From the NCBI RefSeq assembly GCF_000521785.1, contig NZ_JALZ01000008.1, forward strand, positions 1 through 64,000: a stretch of 64,000 nt of DNA, in the 5' to 3' direction. Origin of the DNA: Roseivivax halodurans JCM 10272 (lineage in GTDB: Bacteria > Pseudomonadota > Alphaproteobacteria > Rhodobacterales > Rhodobacteraceae). The stretch's first letter is position 1. Each line of letters opens with the position of its first letter. Of this stretch, positions 45,629 to 49,817 are shown in pieces. Both the position numbers and the translations under genes were made by a program. The notes below the pieces were generated by a model that did not search any database, was not told where the DNA came from, and worked only from the letters and a program-made list of their open reading frames with translations.

Positions 45629-46070
45629 ATGATGAGCAGCAGCAGGTTCAGCGACGCGTTCAAGGGAGACGCCGTCGCGCAGATCACCGAGCGGGGCTAC
45701 CCGGTCAGGGAAGTGTCGGGCCGACTCCAGGTCAGCCCGCATTCGCTCTACGCTTGGAAGAAGAAGTTCGCGACGGCTTCGCCGGGAGAGGCTGAGAAGG
45801 GCTCCGAGATCCGGCGCCTGAAGAGGGAGCGGGCGCGGGTCTCGGAGGTGCGTGACATCCTAAACCGGGGAGGATCGGGAAACGGTCCGGGGGAACCGTT
45901 TCCTCGACGAAGGGCTCCACCGTTGTCCGCCATCGGTCCGAGGACAATGGCGAGCGCGTATTTCGTCAGGGATGCAAAGTGAGATAGGCGTTCGTGGCCG
46001 AGCATCGCGGGCAGTTCTCCGTCCGGGAGATGTGCCGGTGTCTGCGCATCCACCCCGCGCGACCTGAACC
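45629..46070 (+). mobile_element. Remnant of an IS3-family insertion sequence
   Basis: The frame begins with an IS3-type OrfA: RFSDAFKGDAVAQITERG, PVREVSGRLQVSPHSLYAWK and SEIRRLKRERARVSEVRDIL (leucine-zipper part). After about 80 foreign bases the usual continuation AYFVRDAK returns in frame and stops at 45980. One base later in another frame a piece of OrfB follows (AFVAEHRGQFSVREMCRCLR) to about 46050, including a TAG at the Tyr position. The catalytic DDE part is absent. It is therefore dead. The remnant lies between tRNA-Cys and tRNA-Gln. Confidence 0.82.
45866..45946. repeat. Hairpin-rich insert within the IS remnant
   Basis: About 80 bases interrupt the transposase reading frame without shifting it. 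Two hairpins fill it: GGAAACGGT (45878-45886) with ACCGTTTCC (45895-45903), and TTGTCC (45923-45928) with GGACAA (45942-45947), the second extended to nine pairs by one wobble. No terminal repeats are evident. Confidence 0.5.
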
Positions 46071-46147: not shown

Positions 46148-46222
46148 TGGCTGGGGTGGTAGGATTCGAACCTACGGTACACGGTACCAAAAACCGCTGC
46201 CTTACCGCTTGGCTACACCCCA
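46148..46222 (-). tRNA. tRNA-Gln (TTG)
   Basis: 75 bases including encoded CCA (46148-46150). Acceptor arm TGGGGTG pairs with ACCCCAG-type 3' arm; the anticodon loop is TTTTGGT (TTG). The T arm is GGTTCGAATCC. All arms are complete. Confidence 0.95.
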
Positions 46223-46288: not shown

Positions 46289-47284
46289 TTACGAGGCGTC
46301 GCGCTTCGTCCCGATGAAGGCATTACCCGGCGCGAGAGCGACGCGCGCGCGGCCGTCTCCCTTCGCCGCGTAGAGCGCAGCGTCTGCGGCGTCGACGACC
46401 GAGCGGCTTTCCGCACCCGGCACGCCGCCCCCATAAGCGATGCCCAAACTTGCGGAAACGGAGAGAGATGTGCCGCGGAACTGAATGGGGGTCTCGATCT
46501 GCCGGATGAGCCGCTTGCCGGCCGCGATAAGCTCGTCGGGCCCAGGCGGATCGGGAAGGATCAGCAGAAACTCGTCGCCGCCGAGACGCGCGGCCGTGTC
46601 CCCGAGCCGCGTGCACCGACCGAGGTGACCGGCAACGATGCGAAGCACACGGTCTCCGGCGGCATGCCCCTCGCCGTCGTTCACGAGCTTGAACCGGTCG
46701 AGGTCGATCTGGATCACGGCAAAGGGCACCCCGGTCGCGGAGAGACGGTCGAGCTCCTCCTCCGCGCCGCGGCGGTTCAGCAGGTTGGTGAGCGGATCGG
46801 TCTTGGCACGCGCCTCGGCAGCCAGCCGCGCCGATTGGAACCGGTTGTTGAGGCGGATCGCCGATTCCATCGCAGCCGACTTCGATTCAATCAGAAAGAG
46901 AAGCTCCACCGTCTGGTCGGTCGGGGGAAAATCGGCCCCGGTGAGCGTGTGATGCCGCAATGCCTCGGCCACGGAGATGCCGAACGACAGATCAAGTACC
47001 CCGCCTCCCGCGCCATCGGGAACGGCGTGGCCCACAAAGATTGTTCCCGGGCGATGGCGAAGGCGAAGACGCAATCCCCGCGAGGAGTGCCTGATGAGGT
47101 CCGCGACGCTGCCGATCCCCCGCGGACGCAGCGGCTCGAAGAGCTCAAGGAGCTGATGCTCCTGCGGATCACGCGGCGCGAGCAGTTTTCTGAGCGTCGG
47201 ACCTGACCTTCGGATCGCGCCGTCCCTGTCGAACCACAGATGCATCGGACGCAGCGCATCGAGCATCTCGGGGGTGAGCGTCAT
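46289..47284 (-). CDS. Diguanylate cyclase partner of H-NOX (HNOBA-GGDEF)
   Basis: 331-residue protein. The N-terminal 165 residues are an H-NOX-associated (HNOBA) PAS-like domain, with a coiled linker (SAAMESAIRLNNRFQSARLA). A GGDEF domain follows (from about 170, DPLTNLLNRRG), with active site RLGGDEFLLIL intact and an RLGD inhibitory site five residues before it. It should make cyclic di-GMP. Its ATG overlaps the H-NOX stop by four bases; a second ATG three codons upstream is possible. No EAL domain is present. Confidence 0.9.
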   Translation of the reverse strand: MTLTPEMLDALRPMHLWFDRDGAIRRSGPTLRKLLAPRDPQEHQLLELFEPLRPRGIGSVADLIRHSSRGLRLRLRHRPGTIFVGHAVPDGAGGGVLDLSFGISVAEALRHHTLTGADFPPTDQTVELLFLIESKSAAMESAIRLNNRFQSARLAAEARAKTDPLTNLLNRRGAEEELDRLSATGVPFAVIQIDLDRFKLVNDGEGHAAGDRVLRIVAGHLGRCTRLGDTAARLGGDEFLLILPDPPGPDELIAAGKRLIRQIETPIQFRGTSLSVSASLGIAYGGGVPGAESRSVVDAADAALYAAKGDGRARVALAPGNAFIGTKRDAS

Positions 47285-47883
47285 TGCGTACATCTCCCCC
47301 CCCTGCCGAGAGAGCCAAGGACAAAGTCCCTCTCCTCGGCATAGTCCGACTGGATGATCGAGACGTGCAGACTGCCACCGCCCGCGACGCGCGCATGTTC
47401 CAGAACCGCGAGCACACCGTAATCGTCCGCCATGGCACGCACGAGGCCAGCCAGCAGATGCGAGAACCAGGGCAGGTCGCCGCGACAGCGGATCACGAAC
47501 CGGTCCTCGCGCTCTTCGGTTACGTCGATCTCGGGCAGATGCACGTCGAGGAGGACAAGCCTCGCACGATCGGGCAGGTCCTCGAGCGAATAGAGAAAAT
47601 CGACGAAATCCGTTCCGCAGAAGCGGAGAAGGCGCCGGATGGCCTGAGCATTGGGATGCGAGACGAGATAGGTGCCGACATCCTCGAGAACAGCATCGAT
47701 GGGTCGGCCGAGCTCGGTCGCGATGGCCTCCATCAGGCGATCCGTCAGTTCCGCATCGTAGCGCAGCAAAGCCTCGAATTCCGGCGGGGCGACTTCGGCC
47801 CGCCGGACCACCACGGCCCAGCATGCCGCGCCATAGGTATCGACGATGAAGACCTGCAACGTCCTGTTGATCAGTCCGTGCAT
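47281..47883 (-). CDS. H-NOX-like (HNOB) sensor protein lacking the proximal heme histidine
   Basis: 200 residues of H-NOX fold: MHGLINRTLQVFIVDTYGAA at the N-terminus, AVLEDVGTYLVSHPNAQAIRR, and a C-terminal AGLVRAMADDYGVLAVLEH. In heme-binding members a His sits near position 102-105 in an L-D-x-L-H pattern; here that place reads YSLEDLPDRAR with Pro104. The Y-x-S-x-R motif is also degraded (VIRCR around 130-134, only Arg kept). It may bind no heme, or use another ligand. Operon partner is the HNOBA-GGDEF gene, which overlaps its stop. Confidence 0.86.
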   Translation of the reverse strand: MHGLINRTLQVFIVDTYGAACWAVVVRRAEVAPPEFEALLRYDAELTDRLMEAIATELGRPIDAVLEDVGTYLVSHPNAQAIRRLLRFCGTDFVDFLYSLEDLPDRARLVLLDVHLPEIDVTEEREDRFVIRCRGDLPWFSHLLAGLVRAMADDYGVLAVLEHARVAGGGSLHVSIIQSDYAEERDFVLGSLGRGGRCTQ

Positions 47884-48380: not shown

Positions 48381-49817
48381 ATGTCTGGACGCATCCTCAT
48401 CTGCGACGGGACTGCGACCCACCGCATCGTGTTGCGCGTGAAGCTCGGCACGGCCTGCTACGAGGTGGTCCAGGCCGATAGCGGCGCATCGGCGCTCGAC
48501 GCGGCTCTGCGCGAGAGACCCGACCTCGTCATCGTCGCCGATACTCTGCCCGACATGACTGCACGGGAGCTCTGTCGAAGACTGCGGCCGCTCGGAGCCG
48601 GCGGCGAACTCCCGGTGCTCGTGATCGAGGATATGCCGAGCCCCGAGATGCGGCTCGAAGCGCTCCGCGCGGGGGCCGAGGACACGCTGTGTCGACCGAT
48701 TTCGGACATGATGCTCTTTGCGCGGTTGCGAAACCTTCTGCGGGCGCGCGAGGCGGAGCGCGAGCTGCGGATGCGGGACGAGAGCGGCGTGGCGTTGGGT
48801 CTTGCAGAGGATGCCGCCGGGTTCACGGCCCGCAGGCGTGTCGCGCTCGTGCATTCGGGAGAGCCGTTTGCGGCCCCTCTGGCGGATGCGATTGCGGCGC
48901 AGGGCGGGGTCGAGATCGTGCCGGCCACGCGGCAGGAGATCCTGCGCGGCGATGCCGGCCGTCCGGACGCTGTGTTCCTGCTCGATCCTTGCGGCGGCCA
49001 GGCCCTCGACCTGGTGAGCGAGCTGCGTGCACGTCCCGAAACGCGCCGTGCCGGCATTCTTTTTGTTACCGCGGCCGATGATGCGCATGCCGCCTCGCGT
49101 GCGCTCGATCTCGGCGCGGATGACGTGGTGATCGGCGATGCCCTGCCCGAGGAGATCGCGTTGCGGCTCGACCGGATCATCCGGCGCCGCGCGGTGGAGG
49201 CGCGGCTCCGCTCAACAATGGAAGAGGGGCTGCGGGCGGCGATGACCGACCCGCTCACCGGCCTGCGGAACCGGCGCTACGCCCTACCCCATCTCGAGCG
49301 CGTGGACATGCGCGCACGGGAGTCCGGGCGGCCCTATGGCGTGCTCCTTGCCGATATAGACCAGTTCAAGGCGATCAACGACACCTGGGGCCACGCGGCG
49401 GGTGATCTGGTTCTGGTCGCAATCGCGCGACGGCTTCGGGAGAACCTCCGCGGCGCAGACCTCGTCTCGAGGCTCGGCGGAGAGGAATTCCTCGTCACCC
49501 TTCCGGACACCGACGCGCCGCAGACCCTTGCCATAGCCGAGCGGCTCTGCGCGCGGATGCGCGAGGCACCGATCGAGATCGCGCCATGTCACCCCCCGAT
49601 CGCGGTCACCGTCAGCATCGGGGCGGCGACCGGGCCCGAAACCGGAAGTCCCGATGCGGAAAGCCTGATCAGGATGGCCGACAGTGCACTTTACACCGCG
49701 AAGACAGCCGGCCGCGATCGCGTGACCGCGATCGGAGCGCTGCCGACACCGGTCGCGGCCGAAGCGCCTCAGCGTTTCGAGATGTCCTCGATCTCGCGCA
49801 GGAGCCGGTCGGCATAA
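48381..49817 (+). CDS. pleD: PleD-like diguanylate cyclase with degenerate receiver domain
   Basis: 478 residues: two receiver-like domains and a C-terminal GGDEF domain. The GGEEF site (SRLGGEEFLV, about 366-370) and the RGAD inhibitory site five residues before it are intact, so cyclic di-GMP synthesis is expected. In receiver 1 every phosphorylation residue differs from the usual: the acidic pair is DG (9-10), the phospho-Asp position is Ala53 with Asp one place on, the Thr position is Glu83, and the Lys is Arg105. Regulation may be by dimerisation rather than phosphate. Divergent from DUF3572. Confidence 0.92.
   Translation: MSGRILICDGTATHRIVLRVKLGTACYEVVQADSGASALDAALRERPDLVIVADTLPDMTARELCRRLRPLGAGGELPVLVIEDMPSPEMRLEALRAGAEDTLCRPISDMMLFARLRNLLRAREAERELRMRDESGVALGLAEDAAGFTARRRVALVHSGEPFAAPLADAIAAQGGVEIVPATRQEILRGDAGRPDAVFLLDPCGGQALDLVSELRARPETRRAGILFVTAADDAHAASRALDLGADDVVIGDALPEEIALRLDRIIRRRAVEARLRSTMEEGLRAAMTDPLTGLRNRRYALPHLERVDMRARESGRPYGVLLADIDQFKAINDTWGHAAGDLVLVAIARRLRENLRGADLVSRLGGEEFLVTLPDTDAPQTLAIAERLCARMREAPIEIAPCHPPIAVTVSIGAATGPETGSPDAESLIRMADSALYTAKTAGRDRVTAIGALPTPVAAEAPQRFEMSSISRRSRSA

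Follow-up and report, generated by a model that had tools for sequence, protein, structure and literature searches.

An H-NOX-like gene overlapping a diguanylate cyclase gene in Roseivivax halodurans

The window analysed here, that is, the whole stretch of 64,000 nucleotides from Roseivivax halodurans JCM 10272 (contig NZ_JALZ01000008.1, positions 1 to 64,000), carries on its reverse strand the gene of an H-NOX-like (HNOB) protein, which overlaps the gene of a diguanylate cyclase. Both genes lie where a sequence-only reading of this DNA had located them, and the features under study are the following:

47281-47883, reverse strand: coding sequence of the H-NOX-like (HNOB) protein, 200 aa, His-less, of apparent Group 5 type
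47572-47574, reverse strand: codon CCC for Pro104, where sGC beta-1 and Alr2278 have their proximal heme ligand, His105
47473-47487, reverse strand: residues 133-137, C-R-G-D-L, at the YxSxR site of heme-binding H-NOX proteins
47281-47284, reverse strand: ATGA overlap between the H-NOX stop codon and an internal ATG of the cyclase
46289-47293, reverse strand: partner diguanylate cyclase with an HNOBA-like N-terminal half and a GGDEF domain, 334 aa from the ATG at 47293
46568-46609, reverse strand: cyclase motifs, I-site RLGD and active-site GGDEF (RLGD-x5-GGDEF), intact

The in-frame ATG at 47284, 9 nt downstream of the ATG at 47293, is an alternative start for the cyclase. HNOB is the single Pfam family found on the H-NOX-like protein (76.1 bits, cut-off 25.5), and the GGDEF domain of the cyclase scores 129.2 bits. 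Both the GGDEF active site and the RxxD I-site of the cyclase can be read in its sequence, bearing out the earlier claim that they are intact. The description of this partner as an HNOBA protein holds for the relatives, as 7 of 9 of their cyclases pass the HNOBA cut-off, whereas the window cyclase itself falls just short of it (22.9 against 23.4 bits).

A gene for a PleD-like receiver-GGDEF response regulator (48381-49817, forward strand) runs divergently and adjoins the DUF3572 gene upstream of the H-NOX gene, making two diguanylate cyclases, the PleD-like and the HNOBA-GGDEF one, near neighbours in the window. Of 194 loci that span 5 kb or more, 70 have DUF3572 within reach of the H-NOX-like gene, which fits a common chromosomal position. 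Near the 3' end of the module lie a tRNA-Gln gene (46148-46222) and an ORF (45629-45982, forward strand) that, by resemblance, may be the start of an IS3-type transposase.

Proline at the place of the proximal heme ligand in a retained H-NOX fold

The sequence-only reading had proposed that this protein keeps the H-NOX fold and lacks the proximal heme histidine, and both parts withstood closer analysis. In phmmer alignments, Pro104 of the stretch LEDLPDRAR aligns with His105 in both moth sGC beta-1 and Nostoc Alr2278, without gaps nearby, and a MAFFT alignment with other HNOB proteins from Rhodobacteraceae confirmed this placement. A histidine at the heme-facing position was looked for by alignment and none was found, since the three template alignments and the family alignments all place proline there. 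An AlphaFold2 model built with 75 relatives (mean pLDDT 92.8) matches known structures over the whole domain, both Nostoc H-NOX (4iae_A; Foldseek E 6e-13, TM 0.78 by query) and sGC beta-1 (8hbf_B; residues 1-177, Z 21.6, rmsd 2.0, 176 aligned), so that Pfam, model and fold matches agree on an HNOB/H-NOX fold. The YxSxR site, which had been described as mostly lost, reads C-x-G-x-L (Cys133, Gly135, Leu137); the loss was correctly recognised but its extent understated, for in the window protein it is total.

The model is slightly nearer to NO-activated sGC beta (8hbf_B, Z 21.6; 8hbh_B, 21.4) than to the inactive state (8hbe_B, 20.1). This hint about conformation was dropped because the model of the His-bearing protein from D. 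shibae, used as a control, ranks the three chains alike (20.7, 20.6 and 19.3), and similarity to either sGC state is therefore uninformative on the loss of the histidine.

The ligand histidine is absent from most of the family

To place the window protein in its family, 394 genomes across Rhodobacteraceae, nearly one per genus, were surveyed, 296 of which contain HNOB proteins. The ligand column could be read in 282 orthologues and holds Pro in 204, His in 22, Gln in 13, Arg in 12, Asn in 8, Ala in 6, Ser in 5, Gly in 4, Glu in 3, Thr in 2 and Asp, Tyr and Lys in 1 each, and Leu, Ile, Val, Met, Phe and Trp in none of them. The histidine is absent in 260 of these 282 proteins, and several of the residues found in its place are poor heme ligands. 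For the analysis of conservation, 80 named loci were added to the genus sample (362 rows); these had been ranked by similarity to a Pro-type query, so that the lack of His in all 80 is a biased figure and was kept out of the percentage. Four rows belonging to other HNOB types (L003, L004, L007 and L012) and six gene fragments without the ligand column were dropped, and a second Pro-type copy in one genome (L462 in G246) was left out of the counts. Over the 362 rows, the ligand column ranks 91st of 191 in conservation; Trp22, Gly70, Arg87, Pro117 and Gly146 are invariant, Arg83, Arg84, Asp153 and Gly156 are nearly so, and YxSxR occurs in none. All 76 members of alignment A2 match HNOB.

The control consisted of HNOB proteins belonging to other types, taken from these same genomes. 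Among the matches listed, 46 such proteins were read, of which 45 carry the histidine (31 of 31 in a set of mostly best-scoring matches, and 14 of 15 further proteins, the last having Gln), and of the 45 whose sequence extends over the YxSxR stretch, 42 have this motif. The exception, L457 (G086:C4:118741-119217, forward strand), is a canonical-type HNOB protein with Gln at the proximal His (ELQAEVHKLYP) and a YxSxR-type motif that is kept, and from its sequence it appears to be an independent ligand loss outside the window's family. The genome of R. halodurans itself encodes a second, canonical H-NOX with both His and YxSxR (L001, G000:C50:14108-14587, reverse strand), whose gene overlaps one that we recognised by eye as a histidine kinase with a receiver domain; with both heme motifs in place, this organism probably possesses a conventional NO sensor as well.

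A class-wide search of 385 genomes, with at most 8 candidates scored per genome, gave matches in 12. The strong ones (> 270 bits) came from 4 genomes, all of Rhodobacteraceae, and the weaker ones (27 to 110 bits) from 8, one of them of this family; all 7 weak matches from outside Rhodobacteraceae carry the ligand His.

Frequent exchange at the ligand position

A maximum-likelihood phylogeny was calculated for 278 members and 7 outgroups, with the ligand column excluded and rows shorter than 120 aa dropped; on this tree His and non-His must have interchanged at least 17 times. Under parsimony with His-bearing outgroups as root, the data can be explained either by an early loss followed by about 14 re-appearances of His or by about 58 losses without regain, many deep branches being weakly supported and gain indistinguishable from loss. 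A single base change from a Pro codon reaches His, Gln, Arg, Ser, Ala and Thr with the codons observed, so the column is simply accounted for if residues at a loosely constrained site are exchanged frequently.

Two other candidates were rejected. Compensation by a canonical paralogue is not a general cause, as only 28 of 202 Pro-type rows, 3 of 55 rows with other residues and 0 of 21 His-type rows stem from genomes with another HNOB type (43 such genomes, compiled by hand among the matches listed), even though the window's genome does have such a paralogue, with His present. Ser8 seemed to co-vary with the ligand His (raw counts 17 of 21 against 78 of 257), which phylogenetic pairing did not support, the 3 independent pairs on supported branches being too few for it to succeed.

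The partner cyclase and the upkeep of the module

A GGDEF-type ORF follows the H-NOX-like gene in 349 of the 362 loci, and among the 13 exceptions 3 are too short downstream to hold one. The loci with room and no such ORF directly 3' are L042, L044, L125, L160, L175, L205, L262, L332, L368 and L380. The I-site is present in 324 of the 327 ORFs that match the strict GGDEF pattern, at nearly the same rate in each ligand class (20/20 for His members, 246/248 for Pro and 58/59 for the rest), and 190 of the 327 orthologous pairs show the ATGA-type offset. The 22 ORFs outside the strict pattern comprise 20 that show GGDEF, 1 that is incomplete and 1 mis-hit. Many positions are also conserved in the N-terminal half of the 343 aligned cyclases.

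Close non-His pairs show purifying selection, with a median dN/dS of 0.13 and a maximum of 0.29 over 68 pairs, which are mutually non-independent. At least 4 genomes (L305, L371, L380 and L382) have an in-frame stop within the matched stretch and are possible pseudogenes or sequencing errors. CtrA control was considered as a conserved feature and abandoned: TTAA-N7-TTAA lies upstream of 1 of 355 genes (0 of 1045 control windows), and the count of 73 of 355 with one mismatch allowed, which includes the window, had no matching control.

Relation to published H-NOX systems

The absence of the histidine and its prevalence have already been published (PMC5588039, PMC8738867). Kumar & Spiro 2017 reported that the Paracoccus denitrificans H-NOX (Pden_3719), whose gene overlaps dgcA (Pden_3720), lacks the axial His, as does that of R. 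sphaeroides, and that an hnoX mutant is partially deficient in biofilm, with BapA missing from envelope fractions (PMC5588039). These authors suggested that H-NOX inhibits DgcA and still model the protein as NO-responsive, and they describe NirS-derived NO as stimulating biofilm even in the hnoX mutant (PMC5588039). Islam et al. 2025, who likewise treat it as an NO-type H-NOX, found their hnox mutant biofilm-deficient at every density tested; BapA was not differentially abundant at OD 2.0 in their proteomics, against its absence in 2017, and since they report c-di-GMP below detection in P. denitrificans, inhibition of DgcA remains a suggestion (PMC12582929, PMC5588039). Lee-Lopez & Yukl 2022 defined around this protein a very large Group 5, with the proximal His in less than 10%, Pro in most and no conserved Cys (PMC8738867).

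Our count of 22 His in 282 agrees with that figure. The window protein matches P. denitrificans H-NOX (tblastn E 2e-23, 34.9% identity over 96% of the query), has Pro for His and belongs to a family without a strongly conserved Cys (Cys133, 63%), and judged by these sequence features it would be a further member of Group 5, which it also resembles in the overlapping GGDEF gene. It differs from its Group 5 relatives in having the DUF3572 gene and the PleD-like gene directly upstream. In Phaeobacter sp. G2 a trimethylamine methyltransferase gene is annotated upstream of the pair, and at locus L075 one was recognised by eye only; none was seen between the DUF3572 and H-NOX genes in the window. 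The P. denitrificans orthologue of strain HAMBI_2443 (L440, NZ_CP141053.1 351044-351598) has Pro at the ligand site and an intact GGDEF partner; the pair lies on a replicon of 1.7 Mb that is classed as a conjugative plasmid, in a stretch that carries no gene annotation in the PLSDB table. The Pro-type protein of Phaeobacter sp. G2 (L441, CP104104.1, UWS81914.1), whose gene lies on a plasmid of 120 kb, carries the annotation heme NO-binding despite the absent His. The total loss of YxSxR, the comparison with HNOB proteins of other types, the census of partner motifs, the tree and the contrast with D. shibae were not found in the literature searched, which excluded primary papers of 2003, 2013 and 2018.

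This contrast concerns the H-NOX (Dshi_2815)/Dgc1 pair of D. shibae, whose H-NOX is listed as a heme NO sensor inhibiting Dgc1 (PMC8846402, PMC6473078, PMC7232146) and is the family member that we found tabled as such a sensor on experimental evidence. Genome G035 of our sample is D. shibae DFL 12, its contig C2 being 100% identical to NC_009955.1 over the 6 kb tested, and its single HNOB protein among the matches listed belongs to the window's family, with 42% identity to the window protein and the same gene order with an HNOBA-GGDEF cyclase. Unlike the window protein, it has the ligand His and, in a C-x-W-x-R remnant, the Arg of YxSxR, without the Tyr and Ser. D. shibae H-NOX therefore belongs to the His-bearing minority of about 8%. 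A homologue in R. capsulatus has been named alongside it (PMC7232146).

Other systems resemble the window pair in part. Separate H-NOX proteins are paired with c-di-GMP enzymes in Legionella pneumophila (Hnox1/Lpg1057) and Shewanella woodyi (H-NOX/DGC), but these are tabled as heme NO sensors (PMC8846402). The "pseudo-H-NOX" domain of sGC alpha has an H-NOX fold without heme, the human protein lacking the His and the moth protein YxSxR (PMC8196705). In that domain, however, an N-terminal extension enters the pocket and the domain belongs to a fused heterodimer, whereas the window protein is a separate chain without an occluding extension, its first helix beginning at residue 3 in the AlphaFold2 model.

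A heme-free inhibitory partner as the best reading

In the reading that we prefer, the protein is free of heme, inhibits the adjacent cyclase as its partner and has an input other than NO; we regard this as probable, with some reserve. The pair would constitute a heme-independent H-NOX/diguanylate-cyclase module, in which the H-NOX-like protein keeps its fold and acts by contact with its co-translated HNOBA-GGDEF partner. Heme would no longer be held because neither the axial His nor the propionate anchor is left. The H-NOX-like protein would most likely bind the cyclase, hold its activity down and so set the local level of c-di-GMP, as modelled on the proposal for the His-less P. denitrificans orthologue. 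The input would not be NO at a heme iron and may instead be another ligand in the emptied pocket, or there may be no ligand, in which case control would be constitutive and set by the amount of protein. Arg83, Arg84, Arg87, Asp153, Asp154, Tyr155 and His2, which by eye look specific to the family when compared with the outgroups, may contribute to the interface with the cyclase or to a new ligand site.

Two lines of argument lead to this reading. The loss of iron ligand and propionate anchor, together with the charged residues tolerated at the ligand site, makes heme binding unlikely, and the conserved overlapping partner gene, the purifying selection and the published mutant phenotype speak for a working regulator; a heme-free, cyclase-inhibiting partner is therefore favoured. 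The earlier proposal that the protein is heme-free gains good support from the missing ligand and propionate motif, with the H105C variant of sGC beta, reportedly heme-free and resembling the activated state, as a precedent (PMC8196705). As to its being a sensor controlling cyclic di-GMP, the control part can be based on the overlapping intact cyclase and the P. denitrificans mutant data (PMC5588039), and the sensing part stays putative. Heme binding may survive the loss of YxSxR by itself, to judge from D. shibae, whose protein lacks the Tyr and Ser of this motif and is nevertheless tabled as a heme sensor (PMC8846402), so the case rests on the histidine.

Alternative explanations

The protein could still bind heme or another metalloporphyrin through a different residue, for example His2, where the first helix starts, or His76, and remain an NO or redox sensor. 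The invariant Pro117 and His2, present in 93% of members (n=355), would leave room for such ligation; His76 occurs in 70% (n=349), Trp22, Gly70 and Gly146 are invariant as well, and the P. denitrificans orthologue is treated in print as an NO-responsive H-NOX. We nevertheless judge this unlikely: none of the 362 orthologues has YxSxR, His2 has about the same frequency whether the ligand residue is His, Pro or another (86, 93 and 94%) and so does not look like a replacement ligand, and NO acts without hnoX in P. denitrificans (PMC5588039).

It seems to us improbable that the pocket has been re-used for a hydrophobic ligand, a fatty acyl chain or a long-chain acyl-homoserine lactone (AHL), which would turn the protein into a chemoreceptor for c-di-GMP control. 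The idea draws on Bet3-type chains among the weaker fold matches, including 6aq3_A with a covalent palmitate (Z 9.2, rmsd 3.6, 132 aligned), although a Z of about 9 may reflect merely a common arrangement. P. denitrificans uses C16-AHL, and the normalised biofilm of its hnox mutant stays roughly constant with density where that of the wild type falls (PMC12582929), a link that may be indirect; dgc1 and hnox of D. shibae are AHL-induced (PMC6473078), but induction by AHL is not binding. The window's genome contains 2 matches to AHL synthases. Extended to most genera of Rhodobacteraceae, the same thought would have the H-NOX fold turned into a receptor that recognises another small hydrophobic signal and gates the adjacent cyclase, the His-bearing few having kept or re-acquired heme and NO sensing, a conjecture to which we give little credence.

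Non-heme sensing of NO or redox state by cysteine would involve above all Cys133, at the Tyr position of YxSxR and the sole Cys column above 30% in the window's family (63% of 361), and V. cholerae H-NOX offers a parallel with its heme-independent Cys/zinc redox mode in vitro (PMC8738867). As Cys133 is absent in 37% of members, no second Cys column exceeds 30%, which excludes a conserved zinc cluster, and Group 5 is described as having no conserved Cys (PMC8738867), such a mechanism is very doubtful. Finally, a decaying relic, its sensor function gone and its gene persisting by position only, could account for the labile ligand column and the in-frame stops, but is hardly credible given the median dN/dS, the many near-invariant positions outside the old ligand site, the intact partner motifs and the mutant phenotype in P. 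denitrificans (PMC5588039, PMC12582929).

Implications for H-NOX/cyclase pairs in Rhodobacteraceae

The heme ligand is missing from most of the sampled H-NOX/cyclase pairs, but labels or discussions can still present genes of this kind as NO sensors. As D. shibae falls in the His-bearing minority, the ligand residue needs to be checked before its function is transferred to relatives, the R. capsulatus homologue among them. The question of what Group 5 proteins respond to becomes testable by His-to-Pro and Pro-to-His swaps between orthologues and by ligand screens, and the window's protein family offers a natural series in which control of a cyclase by the H-NOX fold may be separated from heme chemistry.
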